Origin: Isoetes taiwanensis
Lineage: Eukaryota > Streptophyta > Lycopodiopsida > Isoetales > Isoetaceae
NCBI GenBank assembly: GCA_021234155.1
Contig: JAJEKV010000002.1
Span: 17,360,041 to 17,424,040, forward strand
Direction of reading: 5' to 3'
DNA: 64,000 nt
This document shows, one piece after another, positions 2,574 to 53,465 of the stretch. Below the pieces are notes generated by a model, which made no database searches, was not told the DNA's origin, and was given only the letters and a program-made list of their open reading frames with translations. Position 1 is the stretch's first letter, and each line of letters begins with the position of its first letter. The position numbers were made by a program, and so were the translations under genes.

Positions 2574-3146
2574 CTATAATAATCTAACAGCTATATGATG
2601 CTCTCTATATGGAACATTTTCAATAACCTTTTCAGCCTGCACATGATCAGTCAACTTGTGACCTGGTACACTAGGTGTTTTTGCTGTTTTAGCTTTCTCC
2701 AAATTGAATCTCCTTAGCATGTTATCAACATGCTTACTTTGTCTTAATAAAATAACTCCTTTTTCTGTATCCCTCCATACTTCAATTCCTAAGTATTGTT
2801 TCAGCTCGCCTAGATCTGTCATCTCAAACTTTGTTTTCAAAATATCTATACATGTACGATTATTTGACATCATAATACAATCGTCCACATAGAGTGCAAT
2901 CAAACAAAAATTTTCTCCATCTCTGTGTCTGTATAAATTCCCATCATTATGTAATCTTTCAAATTCCTGATTTCTTAAAAACTTATCCATGCAAAGATAC
3001 CATTCACGAGGTGATTGTCTGAGTCCATAGATTGCCCTGTTAAGTTTCCATACTGATGTATTGTCCTTTTCATACCCTGCAGGTTGTTTCATAAATATGG
3101 TTTCCTTTAGCTCGACATTTAAAAAAACATCCATATGATGTAGTTC
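2574..3146 (-). pseudogene. Ty1/Copia reverse transcriptase fragment
   Basis: About 190 residues of a Copia-type reverse transcriptase, the enzyme that copies retroelement RNA into DNA. In order one sees ELHHMDV, FLN.ELKE.I.MKQPAGYE, WKLNRAIYGLRQSPREWY, the catalytic LYVDD motif, and DLGELKQYLGIEV. Three residues normally found between MDV and FLN are missing. Integrase and RNase H regions are absent, so this is a small internal piece of pol. Homology stops at 3146, where an LTR-like sequence begins on the opposite strand with TG, so the fragment was probably cut by that insertion. It is clearly a dead remnant. Confidence 0.9.
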
Positions 3147-3485
3147 TGTTGATATGTTTTAACATTATTGTCAATCGAAATCATTATTTTGTGAACCTAG
3201 GGTATAACAAAAAAAAGGAAAAGGAATAATCTGTGTGTATCTCTGGAGCCTGCCGACAGGTGAAAATAGCAGGTCGTTTACTCATTGGAAGATTGAATTA
3301 GCAGGTTTACCATGATTCTGGATAGATACATATATATATTGGAGACTGAACCAGTGATTCAACAAGGGGGAGCAATTTGTAAAAATCACTGTTCACAAAG
3401 GGGTTTGAATATAAGTTTTTATATTGCTAGATAAACGTGGTCGACATTGTTTTTTATAGCTAGGTCAAGTTTTGCTCTATTGACA
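3147..3485 (+). repeat. probable 5' LTR of a Copia element
   Basis: Begins TGTTGATATG exactly where the neighbouring reverse transcriptase homology ends, and ends ...TTGACA 11 bp before a tRNA primer-binding site. It contains a TATA-like catatatatatatt at about 3330. Boundaries are inferred from TG...CA ends and position. I found no matching 3' LTR in the window. Confidence 0.6.
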
Positions 3486-3514: not shown

Positions 3515-4568
3515 ATGTCGACGCGTTTTGGGGCTACTCTATTGAATTCTGTGGAAGTGTTTAAGGGTAAAGAGGGGTTTCAGATATGGAAGGAGAACAT
3601 CAAAGAAGTACTTGTCTTCGAAAAATTATGGAGCGTAATTGAGCCAAGTGAACAGTCTGCTGATACAGATATGCATGCATGACAGTAAATCAAAGGCTGC
3701 AGATGAAGCCAGTAGCAGCTCAATTACAAAGTCACCAGAGGTAAGTTCTTTAATCAAAGTTACTAGTAGTGCTGAAGATTATGAATTGAAAAAGAGCCAA
3801 ACTAGAGCTATAATTATGTCAAAACTGGCACCAAATATTATGATCAAGATAAGAAACCTTGGACCGAAGGAGATGTGGAAATATTTGATTAAGAACTTTG
3901 AGGAGAAAAACTCATCCCAAATAGATGTACTTGAAAAAGAGCTGAGAATGTTGAAATATGATGGAAAGACGGATTTGACGAAACTGTTTGCAAAATTTGA
4001 CTTAATTTGTGCGGATCTTGATGCTGCAAGTGAAGGCTTGTCTGTGAATACAAAAATATTACAAATATCTAGAATGTTTTCTAGCATGAAAACCTTGTCT
4101 ACTTTGATTCGTTCTGTTGCAAGAGATAGAGAGCATGCTGAGACATTAGCCAGGACTGAAATTGCGCAGAAAAATGACATGAATGAAGAAGAAGAAGAAG
4201 AGGCCACTGAAATATTGTTGGCTAAGAAAGGAAAGAGTGATTACAGGTCTAGGTTTCCAAGAAGTAGCAGTATATCCTCTGCCTCTGGCCCCTGCTATTT
4301 ATGTGGAGAAATAGGACATATAAAAATTAATTCTCCTAATGGTTCGAAGATGATCGCACGCTATACTTGTGGTGGTGTTGGGCACTATTTTAGTGCTTGT
4401 CCTTCGCCTAAAGGTGCAGGTAGAGGACGTGGCAGAGGACGTGGTAGAGGAAGAGGTGGCAGAAGAGGAGGTGCAGCTGCAGTAAACATTGCTATTGATG
4501 AAATCGAAGAAGAAATTGAAGAGAAGGACTCTGATGAAGAGAATGAGGGGTGGGGATTTTATGCTTGA
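3515..4568 (+). pseudogene. Copia gag (capsid/nucleocapsid), frameshifted
   Basis: The gag polyprotein packages retrotransposon RNA into particles. The natural start is the ATG at 3515 (MSTRFGATLLN), 4 bp after the primer-binding site. That frame stops at 3680, and coding resumes in another frame from about 3665 to 4568. The long part contains the capsid-like stretch with MWKYLIKNFEEK and LTKLFAKFDLI, two zinc-knuckle remnants, an RGRGRG basic run and an acidic tail. Each knuckle has lost one cysteine: the last position of the first reads Ser, and the first position of the second reads Arg. No protease, integrase or reverse transcriptase follows, so the element is gag-only or 3'-deleted. Confidence 0.85.
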
Positions 4569-5989: not shown

Positions 5990-7040
5990 CTTGACTTCTA
6001 ATTGCCACAATGGGAGGAGGATAGATCCAAACCCCATTTCGTCAGTTCCTACTGGTTCACGTCTTTAACTGCAACTTCTCGACCTTGTCCCAAGTACAAA
6101 CGATCAAAATCGACCTCCATAACGTAAACCCTACAATAACCTAGCAACACACAGGGTTTACATTTCGGGGGCCAAAATGTGGTTGTTTTTATAGATAACT
6201 AGGTGCATCATTTTTGAACATATGCATGCAGAGCTTTGGCAATGAAATAACAAAGTTTGGATCTATCGGCCATCCCGAACGATCCCAAACAATCTTGCTA
6301 CTGCGAAAGGCGCTCCTGAATTCTAATTGCCACACTGGGAGGAGAATAAATCCAAACCCTATTCTGTTAGTTCATATTGCTTCGCATTTTCAACTACAGC
6401 TTCTCGACCATGTCCCAAGTGCAACCGGCCAAAACTCGACCTTCATAACGTAAACCCTTCAATAACCTAGCGACACACAAGGTTTACATTTCGAAGGCCA
6501 TATCCTAGTCAGATTCAATCATTGTACAATGTCATCACGTAGAGGAAGGGTGTTGATGCCAGAAGATGGACCCTTAAAACCTTCCAGAAGCAATTCGCCT
6601 TAAAGGTCCTCTCCCGAAGGCCTCTGACCACGGACGAGCAACTTTTCCACTTCGGAACTCTGAACTAGCTCTGCCAATAAACTCAAAATGTCGATATTAC
6701 CCTGGGGACCAAGTTTTGTGGGCAGAAGACCACCCCTTCTCCAAGAAGCGCCAAAGTAGCTCATGTCCAACATGTTCATAGTCAATTGACCTAGGAGGTG
6801 GCTGTGAATAATGCCATGTCGCGCGTTCGTGTTTTGTTCGGTGCAAAAAATGACCGTGTAACTTGGTCCCTAGGGTAATTTTGCCATTCCTGACGACATG
6901 GCAAAGTCGTATCTCCATTCCGGAGCCTTTGTACTACCCAGACAACAAAACACTTGGGTTTTTACATGGTCGCTCGCAGGAGGCTATGCGGTTTGATAAG
7001 TTCTCCTGCACCGATCTTGGATTTTCTTGAACCTGCTCGA
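5990..7040 (-). repeat. composite hairpin-separated repeat, reverse copies
   Basis: Same family as the array at 42.7-47.1 kb, in reverse orientation. Two copies of the hairpin separator lie at about 6115-6175 and 6445-6500 (arms on AACGTAAACCCT and AGGGTTTAC, loop with AACCTAGC). Between them are the short module and the common leader with cttctcgacc. The long module follows at about 6500-7040 and runs on degenerately towards 7160. Open frames here (such as 6697-6918 on the minus strand) are poorly conserved between copies and I do not call them genes. Confidence 0.85.
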
Positions 7041-7294
7041 AGCTTGGTTATTGAAAGGAAGATGTAACAAACGGATAGAAAAATGGAGCTTTGGGGGAGG
7101 AGGAGGGGGGGGGCATTAGCATCTGGCCTCCCGGAGGAGAGGCATCGCCAAGAAAGGCTACCTTGGCAACCTTTCTGGGGACCGTCTTCCCCATGGTGAG
7201 GCAGCTGCGCAAATTCCTGGTCTTGTCTGACTTGGGGAAGGTGCCAACACTTCTATCAGACCCAATCAGAGAGAGACATAGAAGGAGGGAGGGA

Positions 7295-8850
7295 GGGAGC
7301 ATGTTGGAGCCTGCATAACATGTTTGTGCCACCTTGGCATGTTGGAGCCTAGGTGGCATGTTGGAGCCTGCATGGCATGTTTGAGCCACCTTGGCATGTT
7401 GGAGCCTAGGTGGCATGTTTGAGCCACCTTGGCATGTTGGAGCCTAGGTGGTATGTTGAAGCCCACGTGGCATATTTGAGCCACGTTGGCATGTTGGAGC
7501 CCACGTGGCATGTTTGTGAGCCATCTTGGCATGTTGGAGCGTAGGTGGCGTGTTGGTGCTTAGGTGGCATGTTTGAGCCACCTTGGCATGTTGGAGCCTA
7601 GGTGGCATGTTTGAGCCACCTTGGCATGTTTGAGCCACCTTGGTATGTTGGAGCCTAGGTGGCATGTTGGAGCCCAGCGTGGCATGTTTGAGCCTAGGTG
7701 GCATGTTGGAGCCTAGGTGGTATATTTGAGCCACCTTGGCATGTTGGGAGCCCACGTAGCATGTTTGAGCCACCTTGGCATGTTGGAGCGTAGGTGGCAT
7801 GTTGGGAGCCCATGTGGCATGTTTGAGCCACCTTGGCATGTTGGAGCCTAGGTGGCATGTTGGTGCCTAGTTGGCATGCTTGAGCCACCTTGGCATGTTG
7901 GAGCCTAGGTGGCATGTTGGAGCCCACATGGCATGTTTGAACCACCTTGGCATGTTGGAGCCTAGGTGGCATGTAGGAGCCTGCATGGATCTTCGCCGAG
8001 CCACCTTGGCATGTTTGAGCCTAGGTGGCATGTTGGAGCCTAGATGGCATGTTTGAGGCACGTTGGCATGTCGGAGCCGAGGTGGCATGTTGGAGCCCGG
8101 TTGTCATGTTTAAGCCACCATGGCATGTTGGAGCCTGCGTGGCATGTTTGAGCCACCTTGGCATGTTGGAGCCTAGGTGGCATGTTGGAACCACCTTGGC
8201 ATGTTGGAACCCACGTGGCATGTTTGAGCACCTTGGCATGTTTGAGCCTAGGTGGCATATTGGAGCCACCTTGGCGTGTTGGAGTCTAGGTGGCATGTCG
8301 AAGCCCACATGGCATGTTTGAGCCACCTTGGCATGTTGGAGCCTAGGTGGCATGTAGGAGTCTGCGTGGCATGTTTAAGCCACCTTGGCATGTTGGAGCC
8401 TAAGTGGCATGTTAGAGCCGGCGTGGCATGTTTGAGCCATCTTGGCATGTTTGCCATCTTGGCATGTTTGAGCCTAGGTGGCATGTTGGAGCCTAGGTGT
8501 ATGTTTGAGCCACCTTGGCATGTTGGAGCCTGCATGGCGTGTTTGAGACACCTTGGCATGTTGGAGCCTAGGTGGCATGTTGGAGCCTGCATGGCATGTT
8601 TGAGTCATCTTAGCATGTTGGAGCCTAGGTGGCATGTTGGAGCCCACGTGGCATGTTTGAGCCACCTTGGGATGTTGGAGCCTAGGTGGCATGTTGGACT
8701 CTGCATGGCATGTTTGAGCCACCTTGGCATGTTGGAGCCTAGGTGGCATGTTGGAGTCTGCATGGCATGTTTGAGCCACCTTGGCATGTTGGAGCCTAGG
8801 TGGCATGTTGGAGCCCACGTGACATGTTTGAGCCACCTTGGACATATTCC
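7295..8850. repeat. 57-bp higher-order minisatellite
   Basis: About 27 copies of a 57-bp unit made of three related 19-bp subunits of the type gcatgttggagcctaggtg. The second subunit usually ends in tgcatg or cacgtg and the third reads gcatgtttgagccaccttg. Because 57 is divisible by three, several frames on both strands stay open for 70-240 codons; these are by-products. Adjacent subunits hold the near-perfect inverted pair GCCACCTTGGC/GCCTAGGTGGC around 8 bases, so each unit can fold. Confidence 0.95.
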
Positions 8851-9339
8851 AGGTGGTGGTGCTTTGCTAGAGCCCTTTGACCCCCATTCTACCATCAATG
8901 ACCATTTCAAATTCCATTTAATCATGTTTGGATCCATGTTCCCCCTTCTTTTTCTTTGCCAGAAAAGCCAAAAGAGCATATTTTGAAAGTTTACCTGGCC
9001 ATTTTGGCCAAAGAGTTAAAAATATGCCAAGTCCTTATGTGATGTGCCACCTCTTCCAAATAGCGCTATGTCACCATGAAAATCTATCTTACTAGAAAAA
9101 TTTCAGAATGATTAGTTGATGTTAATGTTTCTATGTTATAATGGTTTTCCCATGTCATCATTACCCTGCCACCACATCATATTCTTGCCATGTCACCAGT
9201 TTTTGCAAGAAACAACCATTGCCAAACCTTTTAATTTGCCTCATTTTCTTATGCTAATGATATTTTGACACATAGCATGCAATGATACCGTAGTGAGTCA
9301 TATGGATAAGTGGGGCATGATGATATAGTCGTGCTTGCA
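8851..9339. other. non-coding spacer
   Basis: Nothing gene-like. It holds the palindrome ggccattttggcc near 8998 and several catgtca/catcat words. The left end of the array starting near 9340 is not sharply defined. Confidence 0.4.
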
Positions 9340-11038: not shown

Positions 11039-11072
11039 ATTCTTCTTATTTACTTTTTACCTACCTTAATCC

Positions 11073-14000
11073 ATGAAGATCCTATCTTGGAATCTAAGGG
11101 GTATTAAGGGAGCTCTAAAAAGAAGAAGAGCTATTTCCCAAATTAGATCCTACAAAGCTGACATAATTCTTCTCCAAGAATTAAAACTTCAAAAATTTGA
11201 ATGTGCTAATTTAGGGGAATGGATATTGCCTGGTAGTTCTTCTATATGGATTGAGGCTGAGGGTACTTCTGGGGGTTTATGCATGATTTGGAGTAATTTA
11301 AACACAGATTTCTTCTATAACAGTCCAAGCAGAATGTGGCAGTGTGCTATTTTTATGATCAAGGACAAACCCTTTGGTCTCATAAATGTCTATGCTTCAA
11401 CTAATCCTAAAGAAAGAGAAGTTCTATGGTTGGAAATCAATAATTGGATGAGAGCTCAAAACATTATTGATTGGATTGTTGCTGGGGACTTTAATAACAC
11501 TCCAAATTGGGATCAAAAATTGGGAAACAAGATTAACATGACCAGACTGGAAAAAACTAGATGGAATAACCTTATTGATGATAACTCTTTGCTTCAAATT
11601 CCTTCCTCTTCTGCTAAATTTACCTGGTCAAACAAAAGAAAAGGAGATGCAAGAGTTTTCTGTGCTCTTGATAGATTTTATCTGAATATCTCTTGCTCAA
11701 ATTTCTGGGATAATGCCTATGTTTTCAGTGATGAGTCTGTTGCTATTTCAGATCATCAACCTCAATTCCTATCCACTCAGATCAAATATCGGGTCCCTAG
11801 ATCTGGAAATATCCCTTACAAATTTAACTCTAGTTTGCTTCATAACAATTCTTTCTGTAATGAATTCAGAGAATTTTATTCTAAGCTAAATAGAGTTTCT
11901 GACCATATGTCCATGAAGAGCTTTTACTCCAACCTTAAGGCTTCCAAATCTTGGATAAAGGAGTGGACTAAAAAGGTTAATACTGAAAGAATCAAGGAGA
12001 AAAAAATTCTTCTCCAACATATGAGAGATATCAGATTGGCTTTGCTTGATGATCCCCTTAATCCTAATTTACATCTTCAAGAAGAAAACCTTGAGAGGAA
12101 AATAAGAACAATTGAGGAAATTGAAGCCAAAGGGGCTGCCATTAGGTGCAAGGTTAAATACTCGAATGATATGGATTCTGGTAGCACCAAATTCTTTTTT
12201 AGAGTTGCTAAAGCTAGGCAGATAAAAAACTCTATCTCTGAAATCAAAAGTGACTCGGGATATTCTAAATAACCCTCGGATATCTCAAATTACTTCTACT
12301 CTAAATATTCTCGCTCGTTCTCTAAGCAAAATAATTTGATGCTATCACATCAACAATGCTAAGGCTTTCACTGATTTGATTGATACCATTATCCCAAATG
12401 ATCATTGCCAAATGGATATTTCTCTATCTAATGTTCCAAGCTCTGATGAAGTCTTATCTGTCTTAAAAAGCTTCAAACATGAAAAATCTCCAGGGCCAGA
12501 TGGCTTTCCCCCTGAATTCTTTCTTATGTTCTGGGATTTAATGCAAAATGATATTATGCATTTTATAAAGGGATTTTGGGAATCTAATCATCTTCATCCC
12601 TCGATTGCTAGTGGTTTTATTTCCCTGATTCCCAAAGTTGAGAGACCTTCTGATTTCTCTGATTGGAGGCCTATTTCCTTAACAAATTCTACATATAAGA
12701 TTTGTGCTAAAATCATTGCCTCAAGAATTAAGGATTACCTGCAAAAAATGTATTAGTGGAAATCGGTGTGCTTTTCTTCCAAATGATTCATTTTAGAAAA
12801 TTACATTGCTGCAATGGAAGGATTGCATTGGAATAAAATATCAAGCCAAAACTGTATTCTGCTTAAATTGGATTTCAAAAGGGCATTTGACAATATCAGA
12901 TGGGATTTCATTGAGTTTGCTATGAAAAAGCTAGGCTTCCATGATAGAATGATTCAGCTAATTATGGGTTTAAATCTCAGATCTAACTCTGCTGTTCTCA
13001 TCAATGGCTCTCCTAGTCCCTTCTTTCCTTTGGAGAGAGGGGTTAGACAAGGTTGTCCACTGGCACCTTATCTTTTTATTGTGGTGGCTGAATTGCTCAC
13101 TAAAGCAATTAAGTACCATCAAAATATTGGCAATATTTCAGGTCTTAAACTCCCGAACTCCCCTGAAACTCTCTGTATTCAACAATATGCTGATGACACA
13201 TTCTCCTTTCTTGAAAATAATGCTAAAAACATTGCTTTCTTCATGGATCTTTTAAGTCAATTCAGTGCAGCTTCAGGAGTGGATTTAAATTTATCTAAGT
13301 GTGTTATGATAAGTGACAGTGACAATTCATATGTGGCAGGAATTAAAATTATCAAAACTTCAGAGGTTACCAAACTTCTTGGCATGCCTTTGTCTCTGAA
13401 TCCAAACCTCTCTGGTCTATAGTCCCCAATCATTGAAAAGATCAGAGCTAAGCTTCATGTCTATAAAAATACTTTATCTTTGGCGGGCCGAGTTGTAATT
13501 GCCAATCAAGTTCTTACCAGCTCTCATATCTATTTCTCTACTGCTTTAGTTGCTCCAGCCTCTGTTTACAAGCAGATTGAGAAAATTATTAGAACTTCAT
13601 TTGGAATGGTAATAATCTTGTCAATTGGAATACTATCACCGTGCATAAAAAAGAGGGTGGTCTTGCTTGTAAAAATATTCATAAACAGGCCCAAGCCCTA
13701 GCAGGGAAATTTGTTTGGAAAGCTTTAAATGGCTCAGACAGTGTAGCATCTAAATTCATCGATAATCGCTCATAAAAGCTCTCCTTCCGGGTCATCCCTC
13801 AATTCCTCATGACTTACCAAATTCTCGCTTTTTGTGAAGTCTCCTTAGCGTACCAATATGTCCCTCTTATGAGAAACATTATTAAGGCCTGGAATAATAT
13901 CTATTTAGCTTTCAAATTTGATCGAGCCAAAATTTTCATTCGGACATGTCTATTTTCTCGGTCTCCTACTTTCAAGGATCATCCGAATCATGTGGCCGGC

Positions 14001-18852: not shown

Positions 18853-19843
18853 TTAATTTGATTTCATATATTGTTCAATGTCGGCCTTCAATACACTTAA
18901 TTGGGCCTCAGAAGTTACATTTATTTTACCATCATTGACTGTGATAAGAACTTTGGCTTGGAAAGCATTAGTAAAAGCATTGGGATTGCAGAAAACTTCT
19001 AAGGTTACACCATCATCTTCAATATGTTGATAGTCCAAATTCTTCCATCTTTGAGGTTTGGCAGCCTTCTCTTTCTCTTTAAATATTGTGAGAAGACCAG
19101 CAATGGCAGTATTTAAGGCTTCTGCTCTTTGCTGGGACAAGGGAAATGTCAAAGATGTCTCCCCTATATGCACAGTAATTGGCGCTTTCCTTACTATATT
19201 TAATGGCAGAAACAATGGTCAGAAATTAAGCAGATTTCCTTGGTATCTTCAAGTCGAATCAACATTACATTACTACAATCAAATCACATACAACTCAAAT
19301 TCAGACCATGGCAGAGAAGGTTGCAAATTGAAACCAACATTACAATACTATCAGTCAAATCACATACAAGTCACATTTAGACCATAACTGAGCAGTCTCT
19401 ATGTTGTTGCAATTTGGACATATAAAAGACCACAAAACCAGAGCTGTTATATTTTGGCATTCTGCCCAAGATGAAGCCTACATTATCATATTACAAGCAA
19501 ATCACGGAATATCACATAACTGAGCAGCTTTTAAGTATTAAATTCATTTTGAATCAGCTAACTATGAGACGTTTTCCATTAGATAAGCTCTTCTTATAAA
19601 GAAAAAACAGAACAAACAAGTGTCTTGAATTATCAAGCATTCTCTAAGGATGCTCTTTTAAAGATTGGTCATAAACGCAAACCTAGGATGCAAAACAGCA
19701 GCAGAGACAAATGACAGAAATTTATGAAAAGACTAACCTTGTACAGATTCACAGCGGACCAAAGGCATCCGTGAATTAGCAGGGTAATACGTGGGCATAA
19801 CCAAGCGAGTAAAAGGAACAGCGGCCATGCCGCATGACGCCAT
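18853..19843 (-). CDS. two-exon plastid-targeted conserved plant protein
   Basis: Exon 1 is 19843-19738 (ATG at 19843, MASCGMAAVPFTRLVMPTYY) and exon 2 is 19193-18853. The 544-bp intron starts GTTAGT and ends ATATAG; joining is in phase (split Val codon) and gives 148 residues. The first 35 residues are rich in Ala, Ser and Arg and lack acidic residues until the end, like a chloroplast transit peptide. The mature part has APITVHIGETSLTFPLS, KPQRWKNLDY, a FCNPNAFTNAF stretch, VLITVNDGKINV and a C-terminal helix. It reads like an intact host gene of a conserved small plastid family I cannot name. Exon 2 alone would need a non-ATG start, which supports the spliced model. Confidence 0.75.
19194..19737 (-). 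other. intron of the plastid-protein gene
   Basis: GT...AG intron with donor GTTAGT at 19737 and acceptor ATATAG at 19194. A pyrimidine-rich stretch (tttctgacc...tttctgcc) precedes the acceptor. Confidence 0.7.
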
Positions 19844-20683
19844 GCCTAATCTTCCTTATCCCCTTCTATGTACACTGTGTATACTTCGGCAGCATTTTTG
19901 CTTAAAAATGGCACCTTTTAAGCAAAACGTCATTTATTTAGAAATTAGATCGTCAATACGCCCCCAGCCATTGGATTTCACCATTTCCAAATTTTTTTGC
20001 CGTTTAAATTAGGGCGTCTTTGAAAATGTCAAAATAAACTACTTAAAGAAGTTGGGAGATGGCAAGGAAGGTGTGGAAAATTATGAGGTTTTTGCAAATC
20101 CAAGTGCCAAACAAAATATACCGACAAAATATACCAAACCATAGATATGCTTAGACCAAGTCATAAGATGGTAAAACCCACCTCGTGACAATTTCCTAAA
20201 AGGGCAAGTTCAAGAATCCTTCATTTGTTCAATGATCCTTGAGCACTCTTATTTCAGTGATAATGTTTCCGCAATCAAAAAGAATATTTTTGTAACATAT
20301 GATTTTTGAAGGTTTATTGTGGTATTCGTATTGAAATACATATGAGAAGGATGTTGGCACCTCGGTCATGTTTAGAAACCAACGTGGAATTCTTTTGGAG
20401 AAGGTGCAGGGTTTTTTTTCTTCCCACAATCGGATAGGGTCGCGCGTGGGGGATGGTTGTGTTGTCTATCAGTGCAGCCGATTCTAAATCCGGCTGCTTC
20501 AGGTGTCGCAGCGGCTGCTTCAAGTGGCGCCAAGCCTATTTGCGGTTGCTGCAGACGCCGATTCCCAATTCGGCCGATTTACTGTCCGTAGGTTTTGTTT
20601 GGTATTTTAGGGTCAGCAAAGCAAGAGGAGACGAGCGACCTTGACAGTGTTCCCACAGTAACAGGTGAGCGACCTGCATATCC

Positions 20684-21731
20684 TTGTTTGTTCTTTGTAT
20701 TTGTGTCTTCATCATGTCTGCCAGAAAGGGCAGGGTTGCTGCTGCCCATGGGCTCATCCCTTGTTCGATGCCAATGGACTTAAGTTCTGTACAGACTGAA
20801 ACCTCTGCCATGCCCACTCCTACCATGCCTGACCTTGCACAGAGCTGGGATGCAATAGATGCCTCCGTGACATTGGCCTTGTCTGGTCAAAACGTTCCCC
20901 GTAGTTTCTTTGATGCCCTTTCTTCGTTCTGCAATAGGATATGCCTTGCTGGCGCAGTTGCCCTGGAGAGGGGGGTCTTCTGCTGATCACCTCCATGTGT
21001 AGGCCGTGCTTAGAGCCCGCTACAAGACTCCTAAGACCCTGAACGATGCTATCAAGCGGGAGTTTAATTGGCCCTCTAAGCCAGCCGGTGTTATCTTAGT
21101 CTGCAAGGCCCTCAAAAATAATAGGTTGCACTGCTTCGAGGGCATGCTAGGATACTGCATGAAAGACGTAGGCAAGGTGCATTACTTCTGCCACTTGCAC
21201 AATATATCCGAAATGATGATTGAGAAGGGAAAAGATTTGTATGTAAGATGGGATGCTGGGGACACAAAGGGCCTCTGTGTGTTAGATAACAGAAACCTTC
21301 TGAACAAGGTAGCGCACTTTGTTTTTTACCATGGTGGTCATAGGTTGACTCCTAGTTTGACGTTCACAATTTGCAGGATGCTGAGAAGTGGGAAATATAC
21401 TTTGAACAGCAGTTGGATAATTCCATCTAACACTGCCCATGTGAACGAGCATAGAGTCTGTGCTGCTTGGAGGGTTATGTTGAATCTCGCTCATTGTATG
21501 CCATTTGATGTTAGAACTATTCTCTTTGGTTTACCTGCAGGTTATGTACCTGTTGAACGGAATGGGCCTGGCCACCGCTGATATTGGGATGATTCTGTGC
21601 CATCTGATGAGATGGATTGTAATTTTCAGGATATTCATGATCCATCATTCAGTCCTGATCTTGAAATCCCTGATCATGGTATGGATTACATCCCCATCCA
21701 CACTGGGGATCACATCATGGCAGTTGGCTGA
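20684..21731 (+). pseudogene. HUH/Y1 Rep-like endonuclease, broken
   Basis: Rep-type nucleases nick single-stranded DNA with a tyrosine activated by a metal held by a His-hydrophobic-His pair. Frame one (20684-20983) ends in AGAVALERG. After a net shift at a G6 run (about 20970-20975) the second frame reads ADHLHV, a TAG at 21000 (one change from CAG), then AVLRARYKTPKTL. That gives motif II (HLH at 20988-20996). Motif III is GMLGYCMKDVGKVHY (Tyr codon 21153, Y-x-x-K), about 50 residues downstream as expected. The frame continues past a TGA at 21579 into an acidic tail ending at 21731. A clear motif I is not identified. The damage is one shift and two stops, so the copy is recently dead. Confidence 0.6.
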
Positions 21732-21837
21732 GTTATTGTGTGTGTTGTTACATGTACAGCTTCAATTTTGTCTATGTTTTGCTTTCTTTCAGCAAAACAT
21801 AGACAGTTTGTGGTGGTGACAGTTTGTTGCAGGGTAG

Positions 21838-22241
21838 AAATGGAGACTAATGAATCTTGCTGGGGAGACGGGCCATCCCGTCATGAGCTTGGATCCCTCT
21901 TTGATAAACTCTATTATTGACGATTCTCATCCCGATCCTCAGGTTTATCCTCCTGAGGGGAAGCAGATGTTCACTGCAGAGGAATTTATAACGAGTATTA
22001 TTCAGGTTGGGACGGAGGCCCATCGAATAGCTGCTTCCCTGAGGATCCTGAGGAGGCAGTTGACTGGTTTTTATGTGGCCATCGATTCAGTGATGTTGCC
22101 TGGGAGCAGCTTGGTGCTCCGGTATCTGAGTTACATGCTTTGAGGTCTCACATGAGCCTTGCTAGGGGCTTGTTGACGCAGGAAATCCACCAGCTTGATG
22201 CTGTGATTAGGCAGGCTGCATCTGGAGAGCCCATGAATTAG
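21838..22241 (+). pseudogene. second frame of the HUH element, function unknown
   Basis: From an ATG at about 21840 or 21850, overlapping frames continue to a TAG at about 22241. The last part reads YYSGWDGGPSNSCFPEDPEE, then WFLCGHRF and a helical end with LARGLLTQEIHQLDAVIRQA. A frame change is needed near 21985-22010, by mutation or by splicing. It follows the Rep-like frame by about 110 bp on the same strand. I recognise no family; it could be an extra exon of the nuclease or a small accessory protein. Confidence 0.35.
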
Positions 22242-22438
22242 GCCTTCTTCTTCTTGATCTTGTTTTGCAATGTCATTGTTTGTGCAGTTTCATGTGCGTG
22301 GCGCCCATGCCACATGTATATTTTCTAAGCTTATGAATATGTGATGTGACGTCCTTTGATGCTATGTGTTGTACATGCTTTGTTGATTGCACTTCGTTAC
22401 TAACATCTGCAGACTTTCAGAGGGCTTTGGCCCCTGGG

Positions 22439-22725
22439 CATAAGGGAGACCCCCTCTGCTGGGATCTCCCTTATGCTCGGATGAGCATTGGCATTGCGTT
22501 GGGGTTCAATTCCCCAAGCTCATTAACAGATTGTCTTTGTTGGCTTGTAGCCATTGAAGGGAACTATGCATAGGATCATCAAATGCATGCCATTGACAGC
22601 TGGAGCTTGGAATGGCAGCCAATGGCATGCGTTGGATGCCTCCTATGCATGATCTCCACGTGTCGTCTAGGTAAGCCATGGGCTTTGGATTCATCTGGGA
22701 TTCGATTCCCCAGGCTCATGTGATT
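22439..22725 (+). repeat. cluster of four hairpins at the right end of the HUH element
   Basis: H1 (about 22439-22478): perfect 12-bp arms GCATAAGGGAGA/TCTCCCTTATGC. H2 (about 22482-22528): outer ATGAGC/GCTCAT enclosing TTGGGG-TTCAATT-CCCCAA, which looks like a tRNA T-arm. H3 (22566-22650): arms of about 30 bp, with perfect ATGCATAGGA/TCCTATGCAT and GCATGCCATTG/CAATGGCATGC segments around a 24-base loop. H2' (about 22678-22722): a second copy of the H2 type. The H2 copies flank H3 as direct repeats. Confidence 0.8.
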
Positions 22726-22739
22726 GTGTAATGTTCTTC

Positions 22740-23413
22740 GTGTTGTTGAGTCATGGAGTGTTGTTATGCAGTAATCTGTTCTACTGCTTTCATACTATAT
22801 TATACAAAAGCCAGAATACTGGTTTATCCAATGGTGTGTGCTTTAATAATGCTCCCTTTAAAGTCGGGTCAACAAAGGGCAGTTTGACCTGAAAAAAGAC
22901 TTGAATTGGGCGTTGTGGATTTGTTGAGAGGGAATATATTCCCAGATGTGATGTTATCCAACGGCTCAGAAGCCATAATACAGGCTCATAATTGAACTTG
23001 AACTACCTATTTTTTTCAAGTTTGAGGATAGTTGAGACAAAGAACAAGAAGAAAGAAGGAAAAATGACTATCAAGGTCTTGAAATAAATACGTATCGAGT
23101 TCAAGGACGTCCAAAGTCACATTCAATGTAAGGTGATTGGGGGCATGACCCAACAAAACAGTCTTCATGTGGTGTGTGCATTGTATATCTCATTGGATGC
23201 TGCCAACGAAGCAATATGTTGATGTGGTCTTATGTGTGCATCATATATCCAATCGATTGTTGCCAATAAAGCAATGTTGATGTGTTGTGTGTGCCATATA
23301 GTCATATCTCACTTCGGATCTTGCTGATATGGCATGATATAAAACTGCTTATTCTAAATTCGAGGATTCAATTTGTTTTGTATAAGTTCGAGGCCACATT
23401 CTATAGACTGTCT
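22740..23413. repeat. spacer with a 60-bp tandem repeat
   Basis: About 23169-23340 holds three diverged copies of a roughly 60-bp unit running from gtgt.tgtgtgc through atatc, tgccaa.gaagcaat to gttgat. The rest shows no genes. Confidence 0.6.
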
Positions 23414-23659
23414 ACCCTTTGGGGCATGGTCTAGTGGCATGACCTTAAATTGCCAAACCCTCGGTCATGGGTTCAAGCATGGCCAACATCAGTCTAGTAA
23501 TGTGGATCTTAAAATCCATTGTCTCGGGTCACGGGTTCAAGCATGACCAATTGGTTCTATGGGTCCATTTTTGGTCCAATTGGCTTTCATGGGATACGTA
23601 GAATGTGATGTTGAATAGATTAACGTCCTTCAATTAAATTAAAAAAAAAAAAAAAAAAT
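23414..23659 (+). mobile_element. tRNA-derived SINE with poly-A tail
   Basis: About 245 bp. The head has an A box TGGTCTAGTGG (23427-23437) and a B box GGTTCAAGC (23470-23478), spaced as in an RNA polymerase III promoter. A second B-box-like GGTTCAAGC is at 23534-23542. The element ends in an 18-20 base A run (about 23641-23659). I could not see a clear target-site duplication. SINEs use LINE machinery, and L1 copies are present nearby. Confidence 0.7.
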
Positions 23660-23794
23660 CCCAAGCCAACTACAACCGTTTTGTGAAAGCGCTTTGGCAA
23701 AGTCCCAATCGTTTTGTGAATTTGTTAAGGCGTTCAAGAAACATCAAAGTTACCTCAAACTCGAGGTACTAGATAAAGAAGAAAGAATGATTTA

Positions 23795-23840
23795 TATCAT
23801 CCACGGAGACCAATCGGCCTATGAGACCAAACTCGAGGTA
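23795..23840 (-). mobile_element. short fragment of an I-like LINE 3' end
   Basis: ccacggagaccaatcggcc followed by tatgagacc matches the 3' terminus of the LINE at 37.74 kb (ccacggagaccgattggcc, tatgggacc). About 35 bp only. A neighbouring 20-bp phrase (actcgaggtactagataaag) occurs twice, near 23758 and 23830. Confidence 0.5.
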
Positions 23841-23930
23841 CTAGATAAAGCATTTGCTATGGACCTCATCTTTGTTTTCTGCTATGGGCCACATCTTTGT
23901 TTTTTCCTCTATACATTTGTTGACATAGAA

Positions 23931-25340
23931 TTTTTGAAGGTACGAGATTATTTTTTCATTAATTAAAGAAAAACATACATAGTTGATTGATGAGCCTTCA
24001 TAAAGGTAGGCTTAACAAGCAAGAACGAGCAAAAGCTTAAATAGTTTAATATACATATTGTCCCAAAATCCCAAGGAGTAGTTTTTGAATGCAATTATGA
24101 GTTGTAGATAAAAAGTCTAAAAAGGAAAGTTTGCAGCATCTGATTAGGCCAGGCCTACTCGTATAGAAGCAGGAGCGTTTGCTATCCACCAAAATGATCT
24201 TGAACAAAAGGAATTTGAAAATTCGAAACCTCACTTGATAGCAACACCTTGAGAATGCGATAATAGACCAGAAGTTGCGAGAAATCCATATCTTTCATGT
24301 AATCAAAACCTGTAAATGTTAACCCACTTGCAGAACCAAAAGATGAAAATTATTGCATCCAAGCCGAGCAACGCTATCAATGTTTTCAGGGGAAATGGTA
24401 GGAATCTTAGGATCATTAGAGGTCAAGGTAGTGCAGAAAAGATGGTTATGATGGGAGGTGAAGCTATCTGCAGTTCCCATTGCATATGAATCTGCCATCC
24501 ATAACTCATTTCTAATCAGCATATAAAAGCCTTGTTGGACTATGAGCAGTAGTAGGGTGCCGTAAACACGCCAACATTCTATAAGTATAGAACATTTCCT
24601 TGTACCTGGAGAACTGCCTTTAAGTAAACTTATGATGATGTTTGTAAATATACTAATATATATAGGCCATCTGCATAACTTTTCTAGTATAAATTCCTGC
24701 CCAGATTCTTTTCCTTGCTTTGCAGACTTCCGCGTCTCTAATCATTTGCCTTAAAGTCAATTGATACGAGGAGGAAATTTAACCTGATGTTCATGCTTTC
24801 TTTCATCGCCATATTTTTGCATCTATGCCATGATTGAAGATCTATGAAACCTTCTTTTATGATGCCCTCTACACAACTTCATGTCCTATGAAAGATTTAT
24901 TTTTTTATTTACTACTGCCTTTGAAAAGTAAAATTGAGTTAAACAAATAGAAATAATCAATATAGCAACCATGTAGGTCCCAACTTCTATCATAACTTTT
25001 AGCAAAAATATTCCTATAGCCCATTGCACATAACTCAATGTCATATTTTAGATCTAACTTAATTCAAGTCAATGAAAATCTTTTGTGAACCATATAAACA
25101 CATGTTCCTTGATTTCCAAGTATTCCAAAAAGCAAGAAAGGCAATAGCATTCTTAAATGTATCATTTCTTTGCATAAGATTAATATTTCTGTCATGAAGA
25201 CACACATTAGCAATCAGGGACTTAGTATCAGCAACATCAAGATACTAAAAATTGGAAGATTTGGCAATAACTAGCATTGAGATCCTCTTATCTGTAACAG
25301 TACCTCTGATTCTCCTTTTTAAATTAGACCAGATAATCCA
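23931..25340 (-). mobile_element. L1-type LINE 3' fragment
   Basis: The reverse complement begins at the 3' end (cattaattaa, then gtacgag and a short T run) and matches the 3' end of the 9.6-15.8 kb LINE. Upstream it carries the same small frame (24319-24522, LIRNELWMADSYAMGT). Near 24990-25200 lies the ORF2 C-terminal region, LMQRNDTFKNAIAFLAFWN and TWKSRNMCLYG, against MQGNDNYKNTIAFLTLWN in the larger copy. The 5' end is lost, near the pogo fragment. Confidence 0.8.
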
Positions 25341-25381: not shown

Positions 25382-25984
25382 TTAAAGCAAATGGAACTCC
25401 AATAACAACTTCTCAAGGGTAGAATAAAAAGCAACAAGATTTGCAGAATTGATGGCTTTAACCCTTTGAATCTCAACACATTGTGGAGATCTAAGACTAA
25501 GTTCTGGATGCCTAGCTTTGAATCCCCTCCACCATCCCTTGCCTGGCAAACCATCCTTGAACATTGCCTTCCTATGAATTGCCATTCCAGCTACTCTCTC
25601 TCGAAGCAGATCTAATGTAACACCATGTCCCTGATCACACATTTCCATGCACCATTCTACAATATCACTCTCCTCTTCTTTTGTCAAACACCTAGGGACT
25701 GCCCCAAATTTTTCTTCAGTTAAACCATTCACCCAATTTCTAAGAGTAGTCTTAGGGATTCCAAAATGCAATGCAGCTTTTCTTAAGGACATAAGACCAT
25801 CTTCAACTGCACCAACAGCCTCATCCATCTGCTGTTGAGTCCATTTTCCTCTTTCCATAATTCTAACCCTCTTTGATCCCAGATTTGCAGAAGGCAGCTG
25901 CTCCTGAATCAACCTTTTAGCTTTTGGTTTAGAGGCCTTGGCTGTAGGAACATCTTTCACAACCCTCCCACCTCTCAATTGCAT
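25382..25984 (-). pseudogene. pogo/Tigger-type transposase, N-terminal half
   Basis: Pogo-group DDE transposases bind transposon ends through paired helix-turn-helix domains. Here 200 residues are open: a basic start, a Psq-like helix-turn-helix (about residues 46-85, KWTQQQMDEAV..., LRKAALHFGIPKTTLRNWVNG), then a CENP-B-like second domain (about 95-165) ending GWWRGFKARHPELSLRSPQ. It stops soon after YSTLEKLL, before the DDE catalytic core. It therefore cannot transpose. It could be a degenerate copy or a DNA-binding-only derivative, and its uninterrupted length is notable. The ATG is at 25984. Confidence 0.75.
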
Positions 25985-26405
25985 GGCAGCAAGTAGGATT
26001 TCCCAACCCCTCTCTCAAAACCAAAGAAAGAAAATAGAGAAAGAAATTAGAAGACAGGGCATACCCAAAACAATGCTCATCACGTTTTTGAAACTTCTCT
26101 TTATACCTGCATAAAGGTGCAAGGATTAGAAACAATCTCTTCAACTGGAAATGCTAAGAATTTTGTTTACCTAACAATCCAAGGATGCATATTGCGTCCT
26201 TGCTTGATCCACCACATCTTAAGGCTCAGATCAACCCTCTGTTAAATGGCTATTCTTGCTTGGAAGTGGATCAAACCCTTAATCAAGGGTCGAAAATGCA
26301 GCAATCATGTGGATAAGACCCTATACTAAGGGTCTAACATGCAGCATCATCCCAATGGTTGTATTGTGTGACATGATTTCTTCAAGATCTGGCGCCAGAA
26401 CCTTT
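25985..26405. other. spacer before the CACTA element
   Basis: No gene seen. It has short inverted words (aagggtc/gaccct) and aaacccttaatcaagggt near 26275. The last bases ctttt-like 'ttt' (26403-26405) form the left target-site duplication of the CACTA element. Confidence 0.4.
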
Positions 26406-42719: not shown

Positions 42720-45700
42720 TGTGGCCTGGATTTAAAACCCAGGGTAGATATTTGGGGACATGTACTTACTAGTAAACGAGGCGTTTTAAAGTTGTGAACT
42801 TTATCTGACCGTAGTCGTAGTAAGAATATAATCGAAGAAGAAATGCAAACGCCCCACAGGGCAGTATTCTGCAGGACTTTTGGGGCGAGCTACTTTCGGG
42901 GGGTTAGCATCAACACTCTCCCTCTACGTGATCATATGGTGAAAGGGCCTAGTCGAATCTAACTAGGATATGACCTTCGAAACGTAAACCATGTGTGTTG
43001 TTAGGTTCTTGAACGGTTTACGTTATGGAGCTCATTTTCCCTATCCGACCATTTAATCTGCCGTCGTTCAAGTAACCTGCTTCGAGCAGGTTCAAAAAAA
43101 TTCAAGATCTGTTCGGGAGAACTTATCAAACTGTGAAGCGTCATGTGGTCGACTGTGTAGAACCCCAAGTGTTTTGTCGGTCAGGCAATATAAAGGCTCC
43201 GGAATGGAGATTCGACTTCGCCATATCATCCGGAATATCAAAATTACCCTAAGAACCAAGTTATACGGTCATTTTTTGCAACGAAAGAAACACGAACCCC
43301 TCTACATGACAGTATTCCGCAGCCACCTCTTAGGCCAATTGACTACGAACCTGTTGGAAATGAGCCACTTTGGCACTTCTTGGAGAAGGGGTGGTCTTCT
43401 GCTCACGAAACTTGGTCTCCAGGGTAATATCGACGTTTTGAGTCCGTTTGCAGTGTCAGTTCACAGGTCTGGAGTGGGAGAGGTGCTCGTCCGTGGCCAG
43501 GGGCCTTTGGGAGAGGACCTTTGGGGCGAACTACTTTTGGAAGGTTTTAAGGGTGCTTCTTCTGGTGTCAACACCCTCCCTCTACCTGATGACATAACGC
43601 AAGATCCTGGTCGAATCTGACTAGGATATGGCCTTCGAAACGTAAACCCTGTGTGTTGCTAGGTTATTGAAGGGTTTACGTTATGGAGGTCGAGTTTTAG
43701 TCAGTTCCACTTGCGACATGGTCGAGAAGCTGCAGTTGAAAACTCGAAGCAATAGGAACTGACGGAATGGGGTTTGGATTTATCCTGCTCCCAATGTGGC
43801 AATTAGAAATCAAGAGCGCCTTTTGCAGTAGCAAAATTGTTTGGGATCATTCGGGATGGCTAATAGATCCAAACTCTGTTATTTTAGTTGACATGGCTCC
43901 GTATGCATGTTTAGAAAAGGTACACCTAGTTATCTAAGAAAACGACCACGTTTTGGCCTCTGAAACGTAAACCCTGTGTGTTGCTAGGTTATTGTAGGGT
44001 TTATGTTTCGGACGAACTTCTTCTGGAACGTTTTAGGGCTCCGTCTTCTGGCATCAACGCCCTCCCACTACCTCATGACATTGTGCAAGATCCTGGTCCA
44101 ATCTGATCAGGGTATGACCTCCAAAACGTAAACCCTGTGCGTTGCTAGGTTATTGTAGGGTTTACGTTATGGAGGTCGAGTTTTATTCAGTTGCACTTGA
44201 GACATAGTCGAGAAGCTGCAGTTGAAAACAAGAAGCAATAGAAACTGACTGACGAAATGGGGTTTGGATTTACCGAGGCAAACTTTCCTACCAGTGCTCC
44301 TCCGGGAGGGCAAATGCCAATGCCTCCCTTCCCGGAACCCGGTTTCCATATCCGACCGTTGAATTCTCCATTCAAGTAACTTGCTTCGAGCAGGCTCAAA
44401 AAAATTCAAGATCTGTCCGAGAGAACATATCAAACCGCAAAGTGTCCTGCAGTCGACCATGTAGAAACCCAAGTGTTTTGTCGTTCGGGCAGTACAAAGG
44501 CCCCGGAATGGAGATTTGACTTCGCCATGTCGTCCGAAGCAGCAAAATTACCCTAGAGACCAAGTTACACGGTCATTGTTTGCAGCAAAAGAAACACGAA
44601 CCCTCTACATGGCAGTATTCTGCACCCTCCGCTAAGGCCAATACACTACGAACGTGTTGGACATGAGCTACTTTGGCGCTTCCGGGAGCAGGGGTGGTCT
44701 TCTGCCCACAAAACTAGGTCTCCAAGGTAATGTCGATGTTTCGAGTCCATTGGCAGAGTCAGATCACAGTTCCGGGGTAGGAGAGTTGCCCGTCCGTGGC
44801 CAAGGACCTTCCAGAGAGGACCTTTGGGACGAACTTCTTTTGGAAGGTTTTATGGCTCCGTCTTCTGGCATCAACGCCCTCCCACTACCAAATGACATTG
44901 TGCAAGATCCAGGTCCAATCTGACCAGGGTATGGCCTCCAAAACGTAAACCCTGTGGGTTGCTAGGTTATTGTGGGGTTTACGTTATGGAGGTCGAGTTT
45001 TATTCAGTTGCACTTGAGACATGGTCGAGAAGCTGCAGTTGAAAACAAGAAGCAATAGAAACTGACGAAATGGGGTTTGGATTTACCGAGGCAGGCTTTC
45101 CTATCAGTGCTTCTCCGGGAGGGCAAATGCCAATGCCTCCCTTCCCGGAACCCGGTTTCCATATCCGACCGTTGAATTCTCCATTCAAGTAACTTGCTTC
45201 GAGCAGGCTCAAAAAAATTCAAGATCTGTCCGGGAGAACATATCAAACCGCAAGACCTGTCCGGGAGAACATATCAAACCGCAAAGTGTCCTGCAGTCGA
45301 CCGTGTAGAAACCCAAGTGTTTTGTCGTTCGGGCAGTACAAAGGCCCCGGAATGGAGATTTGACTTCGCCATGTCGTCCGAAACAGCGAAATTACCCTAG
45401 GGACTAAGTTACACGGTCATTTTTTGCAGCAAAAGAAACACGAACCCTCTACATGGCAGTATTCTGCACCCTCCGCTAAGGCCAATTCACTACGAACGTG
45501 TTGGACATGAGCTACTTTGGCGCTTAGGGAGGCGGGGTGGTCTTACGCCCACAAAACTTGGTCTCCGTGGTAATGTTGATGTTTGAGTCCGTTGGTAGTC
45601 GAGATCACGAGTTAGGGGTGGGAGAGTTGCCCGTCCGTGGCCAGGGACCCTCCAGAGAGGACCTTTGGGACGAACTTCTTCTGGAAGGTTTTAGGGCTCC

Positions 45701-47145
45701 GTCTTCTGGCGTCAACGCCCTCCCACTACCTCATGACATTGTGCAAGATCCTGGTCTCCTAATCGGCCAGGTATGGCCTCAAAAACGTAAAACCCCGTGG
45801 CGTTGCTAGGTTATTGTAGGGTTTACGTTATGGAGGTCGAAGTTTTATTCGGGTTGCACTTGAGACATGGTCGAGAAGCTGCAGTTGAAAACAAGAAGCA
45901 ATAGAAATAGACGAAATGAGGTTTGGATTTATCCTCCTCCCAGTGTCGCAATTAGAAGTCAAGAACACATTTTGTAGTAGTAGTCTTTTTTGGAATGATT
46001 CGGGATCGCCAATAGATCCAAAGTCTGTTATTTCAATTGCCATGGCTCCGCATGCATGTTCGAAAAAGGTACACCGGTCCCAAGTGCAATCGACCATGTT
46101 TTGGCCTCCATAACGTAAACCCTACAATAACCTAGCAACGCACAGGGTTTACGTTTTGGAGGCCATACCCTGGTCAGATTGGACCAGGATCTTGCACAAT
46201 GTCATGAGGTAGTGGGAGGGCGTTGATGCCGGAAGACGTGAGCCCTAAAACCTTCCGAAGAAGTTCGTCACAAAGGTCCTCTCCGGAGGGTCCTCGACCA
46301 CCGGACGGGCAACTCTCCCACCCCGGAACTGTGATCCGACCGCCAACGGACTCGAAACATCGACATTACCCTGGAGACCAAGTTTCGTGGGCAGAAGACC
46401 ATCCCTGCTCCCGGAAGCGCCAAAGTAGCTCATGTCCAACACGTTCGTAGTGTATTGGCCTTAGCGGAGGGTAATAACGCCATGTAGAGGGTTCGTGGTT
46501 TCTTTTGTGCAAAAAATGACCGTGGTAACTTGGTCCCTAGGGTAATTTTGCTGTTTCGGACGACATGGCAAAGTCAAATCTCCATTCCGGGGCCTTTGTA
46601 CTGCCCGAACGACAAAACACTTGGGTTTCTACACAGTCGACTGCAGGACACTTTGCGGTTTGATATGTTCTCCCGGACAGATCTTGAATTTTTTTGAGCC
46701 TGCTCGAAGCAAGTTACTTGAATGGAGAATTCAACGGTCGGATATGGAAACTGGGTTTCGGGAAAGGAGGCATTGGCATTTGCCCTCCCGGAGGAGCACT
46801 GGTAGGAAAGCCTGCCTCGGTAACGTCAGTTTCTATTGCTTCTTGTTTTCAACTGCAGCTTCTCGACCATGTCTCAAGTGCAACTGAATAAAACTCGACC
46901 TCCATAACGTAAACCCCACAATAACCTAGCAACCCACAGGGTTTACGTTTTGGAGGTCAAAACGTGGTCGACTTCTTTGATAACTAGGTGGACCATTTCT
47001 AAACATGCATGGGGAGCCATGAGAACTGAAATAACAGAGTTTTGATCTAGTCGCCAATCCGAGTGACCCCAAACAATTTTGCTACTGTATAAGGCGCTCT
47101 ACACTTTTAATTGCAAAACTAGGAGGAGAATAAATCAAAACCACT
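42720..47145. repeat. array of composite repeats separated by hairpins
   Basis: Modules: P, a hairpin of about 55-60 bp with arms ccA/TAACGTAAACCCT and AGGGTTTACGTTatgg around a loop with TTGCTAGGTTATT; B, a leader of about 95 bp; C, a long module of about 640 bp; D, a short module of about 180 bp. Order on the plus strand: partial C, P (42979), C, P (43636), B, D, P (43966), partial C, P (44122), B, C, P (44939), B, C, P (45782), B, D; then inverted P (46105), C, B, P (46905), D. Strand polarity flips near 46080. C ends in a CCTGGTC/GACCAGG hairpin just before P. Open frames recur in C but shift between copies. Confidence 0.9.
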
Positions 47146-52325: not shown

Positions 52326-53465
52326 ATGGCAGAACAACAGGAGGTGAAGAACATGGCTGATGTAGTTCAGGTAATTCCCAGCCCAAGCGTAGTTGTAACA
52401 TTGTCACAAGATCAAGCAGAAGAACATGGGCACGAGCCTGCGCAGTCTCAGGTTCAATCATCTCCTCCACATCTAGATACAATAGCTAGTGATGGGGGAA
52501 CTGTTACTAAGGAAAAGAGTGAAAAGCCAGAGAACACAAGGAAAGAGTTTAACTTTTGGACTGATCAGGAGGTGTGGCTCCTTCTAGACCTTTATGAGGA
52601 GAAATGGAACCAGTTAGACAGAGGGAACGTAAAGAGTAAACATTGGGAGGAAGTGGCAAGCCGCCTCGCTAGCCAGGGTAATGGGCTCTGGGTTTCCAAA
52701 ACTCCAACTCAATGCAAGAACAAAATTGAGGACATGAAAAAGAAGTATAGAGCTGAAAAGGCAATGAAGATAGGTGCTTATGCTGGACCCTCCAAGTGGA
52801 TTTTTTTCTCTAGGATGGAATCAATGTTAAGAAATGGTTCCAAGGCACCAGCATTGCCACCTCCTGTTGCTATTGGAGTTGTTGATACTAATGGCCATGC
52901 CAATGGCCATGCAAATAGTCATGTCCCGCATGCGGTGGAGCTTGAATCTTATGGCAATTGCAACCATCTTGAACATGTTCACTTTTTTAGACAGGCTCCA
53001 ACAGCAAGAATTGCTGAGAAAGATATGAATGAAGGACCAATTCATGAAGATGAAAACACCTCTTTTACTACCCCTCAGAACAATGCAAGGAAGGAAAATG
53101 GCACGTCATTGAACAATGTCATGAGCACTTCCAAAAGTAAGACTCCTTTGTTGGGGACAGACAACAAACCCATTCTAAAACGGAGGAAATCATCGGCAAG
53201 CAGCTCAGTGAGTGATGTTGTTGCTGTTATCAAATCTTTTGGCGAGTCCCTTATGAAGGTTGAGGATGCCAAATTGCAAATGCAGAGAGAGGTTGTTCGC
53301 CTACATGCAGAGGCTGAATTCAGGCGCATTGAGATGGAACTTAAGAGAACGGAAATGCTCTTAAACACGCAGCTCCAAATAGCTAAGCTTTTTTCTACAA
53401 AGACTAGGAAAAAGAAAGTAAAAAAACCTGCAAATGCAGACCAGGTCACTCAGGAGAGTAATTGA
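52326..53465 (+). CDS. trihelix transcription factor, SIP1/ASIL-like
   Basis: A 379-residue intact, intronless frame. Trihelix factors bind GT-type promoter elements in the nucleus. Residues about 74-168 form the DNA-binding domain: FNFWTDQEVWLLLDLYEEKW, then KHWEEVASRLASQG, TPTQCKNKIEDMKKKYRAEK and SKWIFFSRMESML, with the spaced tryptophans that define the fold (W78, W84, W107, W158). A long variable linker follows. Residues about 305-355 form a charged helix (EDAKLQMQREVVRLHAEAEF) typical of the SIP1 clade. Basic clusters KRRK (285-288) and RKKKVKK (361-367) are likely nuclear signals. TGA lies directly before the ATG in frame, fixing the start. One of two genes here that look functional. 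Confidence 0.9.
   Translation: MAEQQEVKNMADVVQVIPSPSVVVTLSQDQAEEHGHEPAQSQVQSSPPHLDTIASDGGTVTKEKSEKPENTRKEFNFWTDQEVWLLLDLYEEKWNQLDRGNVKSKHWEEVASRLASQGNGLWVSKTPTQCKNKIEDMKKKYRAEKAMKIGAYAGPSKWIFFSRMESMLRNGSKAPALPPPVAIGVVDTNGHANGHANSHVPHAVELESYGNCNHLEHVHFFRQAPTARIAEKDMNEGPIHEDENTSFTTPQNNARKENGTSLNNVMSTSKSKTPLLGTDNKPILKRRKSSASSSVSDVVAVIKSFGESLMKVEDAKLQMQREVVRLHAEAEFRRIEMELKRTEMLLNTQLQIAKLFSTKTRKKKVKKPANADQVTQESN

Follow-up and report, generated by a model that had tools for sequence, protein, structure and literature searches.

A decayed Replitron-type transposon with a second gene and a 3′ hairpin block in the quillwort Isoetes taiwanensis

The window, that is, the whole stretch of 64,000 nucleotides of Isoetes taiwanensis DNA analysed here, contains an element of 2733 bp at positions 20260-22992. 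On its plus strand lie two pieces of a transposase gene (ORF1), at 20684-20986 and 20988-21731, followed by the remains of a second gene (ORF2) at 21840-22241 and by a block of hairpins. The first-pass annotation of this DNA had placed the element at 20440-22730. This extent was too short, and the picture was incomplete in that the second gene, also broken, had been missed. The motifs that it described were found where it had seen them. HLHV was located at 20988-20999 and GYCMKDVGK starts at 21150; the tyrosine codon of the latter (21153-21155) lies 55 residues past the first histidine of HLH. AVALERG sits in the other frame, within the N-terminal piece, and the shift between the frames falls in a run of six G residues placed at 20970-20975. 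The N-terminal piece ends past this break. The main piece, which carries HLH and YxxK, is interrupted by the two in-frame stops already reported, TAG at 21000-21002 and TGA at 21579-21581. In unbroken copies ORF1 is one continuous frame, in contrast to the two pieces of the window.

When the main piece was scanned with both internal stops read through, it matched the Pfam family Replitron_HUH (PF21859) with an E value of 1.8e-10 and 41.7 bits over profile positions 42-127. Because this match exceeds the curated cut-off of 28.5 bits, the pattern of H-x-H and Y-x-x-K motifs is not due to chance. The N-terminal piece matched positions 1-37 with 13.4 bits (E 0.1), which is meaningless alone but continues the Replitron_HUH profile. 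For Replitron_C (PF21860), the scores ranged from 13.6 to 16.9 bits in the four copies tested, below the curated cut-off of 27 bits in all of them; the main piece of the window scored 16.9 bits. A six-frame scan of positions 19001-24000, with stops read as X and E values up to 1, returned Replitron_HUH and the sub-cut-off Replitron_C and nothing else, and no helicase match was found in this region. The residue four past the YxxK tyrosine is D rather than a second tyrosine. Two further sub-threshold Pfam matches, in two of the pieces scanned (GKAP, 0.21; Prp19, 0.24), were taken as chance.

Unbroken relatives gave stronger matches. In locus L044, the open ORF1 of 339 aa matched Replitron_HUH over positions 1-127 of 128 with an E value of 5.2e-22 and 79 bits, and L012 and L031 matched over the same positions with 72 and 64.4 bits, respectively. 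These significant matches, in the window copy and in its relatives, bear out the earlier reading as a Rep-like HUH nuclease, and the one tyrosine and the absence of a helicase match from 19001-24000 agree with the single-tyrosine type it had proposed. A homologue search with the broken ORF1 frame left no match among 110 candidates at E values up to 0.01, and one with its region 1-100 left none among 4 at values up to 10. No match was obtained in plasmids or, by sequence, among solved structures, where the best profile match had an E value of 1. Such searches succeed only with word matches or near relatives, and these null results do not outweigh the Pfam match. In PHROGs, ORF1 hit a single family of unknown function, phrog_9020, over the short stretch of residues 219-254 (E 0.0014).

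The element was found to be one of many. A DNA search of the same genome gave at least 55 matched stretches, covered by 40 loci (L009-L048, in which L009 is the window copy itself; 40 of 1086 candidates were scored), and a protein search gave at least 121 matches (119 of 4775 candidates were scored). More than 10 of the listed protein matches had no internal stop; hence, open transposase copies exist. Loss of the HLH and YxxK residues in homologs had been named as a result that would speak against the annotation. These residues were kept: of the 40 aligned copies, among those scorable at each position, 36 of 37 retain the first histidine of HLH and all 36 the second, while the catalytic tyrosine (Y148) is retained by all 38 and the lysine of YxxK by 35 of 36. 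Furthermore, the median dN/dS of ORF1 was 0.155 (105 pairs, range 0.048-0.891) in a sample of 15 of the 40 copies selected for long frames.

The window copy itself is a fossil, unable to make either protein whole. Across the 40 copies, several codons of ORF1 are hit by stops repeatedly, including 46, 97, 290 and 306. This recurrence is what decay at hot spots would produce, and the two stops of the window copy fall on codons 97 and 290. The earlier statement that the element had recently died was correct as to its death; its recency was borne out only partly, with 93.5% identity in the coding alignment to the closest among the 39 further copies retrieved. Three loci of a second subfamily (L049-L051) were also fetched, and the ORF1 of L050 shares 233 of 345 residues with that of L044. 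A third, decayed subfamily at L039:1-1450 showed by eye the same order of ORF1 end, ORF2 remains and hairpins.

The ends were defined by comparing copies, a check that the first-pass annotation had suggested. Similarity started at about 20260 and stopped at 22982-22986 in many copies. The 5′ terminus is an ATAAT at 20260-20264, the left copy of a direct terminal repeat. The same ATAAT begins 21 of the 24 listed 5′ boundaries, including that of the window; these boundaries are not all independent, for the flanks show L026/L027 and L019/L023, and at the 3′ side L021/L038, to derive from a single insertion each. The 3′ terminus at 22975-22992 lies within a short tandem repeat and has ATAAT at 22975-22979 and at 22988-22992 as the right copy of the terminal repeat. 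In the copies, CCATAAT forms the core of this 3′ tandem repeat; 17 of 24 listed rows show another ATAAT shortly beyond the first, and the position of the 3′ cut inside the tandem repeat varies among copies. In all three loci of the second subfamily, the shared part has ATAATG close to its start (L051 was matched by eye), and L049 and L050, which extend to the 3′ end, have ATAAT where the similarity stops. The 5-bp direct terminal repeat is present at both ends in two subfamilies.

Target sites were examined in the 11 loci that have both ends, with 110 mismatched pairs of flanks as controls. Flanking direct repeats longer than in all 110 controls were observed in three copies (L020, 20 bp; L026, 15 bp; L036, 10 bp); in these, some bases separate the flanking repeat from the element, so that the repeats do not touch both ends. 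The other eight copies were within the controls: L015 was reached by 2 of them, L016 by 12 and the remaining six, including the window copy, by at least 24. Target-site duplications of 2-8 bp were not seen in the 11 copies, a length at which duplications are indistinguishable from chance. A blind search of the window's own flanks for short direct repeats gave 6 shared 8-mers and none longer, which is at chance level (shuffled mean, 7.8).

Downstream of ORF2 we found a block of four hairpins. H1 (22438-22476) is a 16-nt inverted repeat of 94% identity. H2 (22482-22522) consists of TTGGGG-TTCAATT-CCCCAA in a short outer stem, H3 (22566-22650) is a long imperfect inverted repeat, and a second H2-like hairpin, H2′, lies at 22678-22718. 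As single-stranded DNA, positions 22400-22740 folded better than all 100 shuffles (z -5.6), and a stretch of equal length at the 5′ side was not outstanding (z -0.9). The signal was weaker in sliding 120-base windows, the best of which (z -2.4) fell within 22400-22740. In 100-base bins compared with ten distant copies, identity to the window was 0.79-0.83 at 22360-22659 and 0.63-0.66 at 22660-22859; the ORF1 bins from 20760 on were 0.81-0.88 identical.

The stems of H1 and H2 have other letters in the second and third subfamilies, where both hairpins are again found. In a hand-picked set of eight sequences from across the subfamilies, standard pairs made up 97.8% of the hairpin pair cells, and 6 of 23 pairs changed on both sides (a number reached by 13 of 500 shuffles). 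The covariation score was 0.284. Shuffled alignments gave 0.108, none of 500 reached the observed value, and sliding gave no more than 0.156. Further pair types were less informative, as 52 of 500 shuffles had as many. The first subfamily by itself showed hardly any covariation (a term of 0.08 kcal/mol over 24 sequences); covariation appeared only once the other subfamilies were added. Between subfamilies, therefore, the 3′ hairpins change in sequence yet stay paired.

The 7-base loop of H2, TTCRAYT on a G-C-rich stem, resembles the T-arm of tRNA, which likewise has a 7-base loop on a G-C-rich stem. Such T-arm-like modules were also seen at L039:974-1016, L022:4035-4077, L034:4986-5023 and L035:4306-4347, partly outside the element of the locus. 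The hairpin block might act as RNA, for example as a tRNA-like structure or in 3′ end processing of the transposon mRNA, rather than as a DNA site of the transposase. Its position after the ORF2 stop, about 470-554 bases from the 3′ end, and its T-arm-like loop both argue for this possibility. On the other hand, ARAGORN found no tRNA in the block and Rfam no RNA family at E up to 1, and a hairpin close to the site is a common feature of HUH nuclease targets. We regard a role as RNA as a plausible minority view, and a DNA signal is preferred below.

ORF2 follows ORF1. Its remains in the window contain at least two frame breaks, and its frame of 136 aa is unbroken in 4 of the 37 copies listed (L044, L032, L021 and L022). 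Over 39 of the 40 copies (L033 was left out), the mean differences at the three codon positions were 0.135, 0.092 and 0.199, and the excess at the third position was reached by 0 of 5000 permutations. This phase test alone is not clean, because the stretch after ORF2 is also biased in its frame (P 0.016, 50 columns), as is the stretch between the two ORFs (permutation P 0.01). ORF2 may extend upstream, or the test may be lenient. The median dN/dS of ORF2 was 0.288 (88 pairs, range 0.148-1.196) in the same 15 long-frame copies. Furthermore, the ORF2 of L050 in the second subfamily shares 80 of 135 residues with that of L044, and its pN and pS against four first-subfamily copies were 0.29-0.31 and 0.69-0.77, respectively. 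ORF2 is under purifying selection. None of L049-L051 has an unbroken ORF2 started by ATG: that of L050 has no ATG, and those of L049 and L051 have one and break later. ORF2 matched nothing in Pfam or PHROGs. Among solved structures the best hit was a CED-4 chain (E 0.028 by profile, 0.26 by single sequence), which was rejected as too weak. In the window copy, the stretch that separates ORF1 from ORF2 includes a perfect 15-nt inverted repeat at 21769-21805.

ORF2 could alternatively be the end of a longer product, joined to ORF1 by splicing or frameshifting. The phase bias between the ORFs points in this direction, as do candidate splice acceptors seen by eye before ORF2. Moreover, in 16 of the 37 listed copies the frame of ORF2 stays open upstream for at least 106 of 110 codons, overlapping the ORF1 end (at L044:2704-3021 and the equivalent stretch of other copies). 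In the other 21 listed copies, however, there is a nearer upstream stop, and 33 of the 37 have M at the start column of ORF2. The four unbroken ORF2s are themselves divided, those of L044 and L021 being open upstream and those of L032 and L022 not. A joined product is rather unlikely on this evidence, and ORF2 is treated below as a gene of its own.

The family match, the single tyrosine, the lack of a helicase match nearby, the many dispersed copies and the short direct terminal repeats agree with the replitron type suggested at first. The option of an unclassified HUH transposon, left beside it in the first-pass annotation, is superfluous, as the Replitron family match suffices. An endogenous Rep gene of the CRESS type, similar to those of geminiviruses or circoviruses, would have the same order of motifs and a single tyrosine. 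Such an origin is nevertheless highly improbable: the Pfam scans, run to an E value of 1, listed no viral Rep family, the helicase part is absent from the six frames of 19001-24000, and viral contigs gave no confirmed relative (one protein; with a profile, 52 pattern matches, none confirmed). The dispersed copies with common ATAAT ends are transposon-like. Helitrons are also HUH transposons and are common in plants, but a Helitron or its remnant is scarcely credible here, since Helitrons have two tyrosines and a fused helicase, and the window element has one tyrosine, no Helitron or helicase match in the six frames and ATAAT direct terminal repeats that differ from Helitron ends.

To our knowledge, Replitrons are a young class of which few anatomies have been worked out. 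They are 0.9-4 kb long, with direct terminal repeats of 5-11 bp. Their founding paper is that of Craig (2023, PNAS e2301424120); our literature search, which did not extend to that paper, found no title on quillwort Replitrons among the papers listed. A passage of the review PMC10741241 reports Replitrons from liverworts, mosses, lycophytes and ferns, and their absence from hornworts and seed plants; accordingly, the earlier remark that such transposons are little documented in land plants was too strong. The same source gives target-site duplications of 2-8 bp for the group. The window element, with its HUH family match, single tyrosine, lack of helicase, length of 2733 bp, 5-bp direct terminal repeats and lycophyte host, belongs to an established type of transposon, in a host group from which this type is already reported. 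It differs in its Replitron_C scores below the cut-off and in its target sites, where the flanking repeats of L020, L026 and L036 (10-20 bp) are longer than the duplications given for Replitrons. The second conserved ORF and the covarying 3′ hairpin block set it further apart from Replitrons as described in that review passage.

Taken together, these findings indicate that the locus is very probably a dead full-length copy of a high-copy lycophyte Replitron family, whose open members encode the single-tyrosine HUH transposase (ORF1) and the 136-aa ORF2 protein. By analogy with the family, the transposase would nick one strand at ATAAT through its tyrosine, a single strand would be peeled off or copied, and the copy would be inserted elsewhere. 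The high copy number fits such a copy-and-paste mode but is no proof of it. More tentatively, the hairpin block (H1/H2) might be the recognition signal of the transposase, and ORF2 might help transposition or expression. We know of no partner protein of the ORF2 kind in any eukaryotic HUH transposon. It is possible, at somewhat less than even confidence, that quillwort Replitrons are two-gene HUH transposons, in which the nuclease is accompanied by a dedicated ORF2 partner and by a duplicated hairpin/T-arm-like signal kept by shape and not by sequence. ORF2 together with the hairpins is what could raise the standing of the finding. Since the genome carries many copies, several of them with open transposase frames, and since the family has common ends, a constrained second gene and a structured signal, one can test here whether self-copying by a single-tyrosine nuclease depends on a helper and on a hairpin.

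Other features were observed elsewhere in the window. An open frame on the minus strand at 25385-26014 matched HTH_psq and a Tc5 DNA-binding domain and appears as a piece of a pogo/Tc5-like transposase. Copia-type reverse transcriptase and gag pieces, together with a LINE-like endonuclease with reverse transcriptase recognized by eye, lie at 2577-3158 (minus strand), 3639-4565 (plus) and 11070-13419 (plus). Long direct and inverted repeats of one family, roughly 79-91% identical, occur at 6121-7055 and 43036-47142. A tandem array at 7299-8841 is built of a 19/38/57-base unit, which in its 57-base form is repeated 27 times, and a frame overlapping it, at 8252-8983, is open for 244 codons. Finally, an open frame on the plus strand at 52326-53462 resembles trihelix transcription factors; the best of its 84 matches was from Selaginella moellendorffii, with 50% identity.
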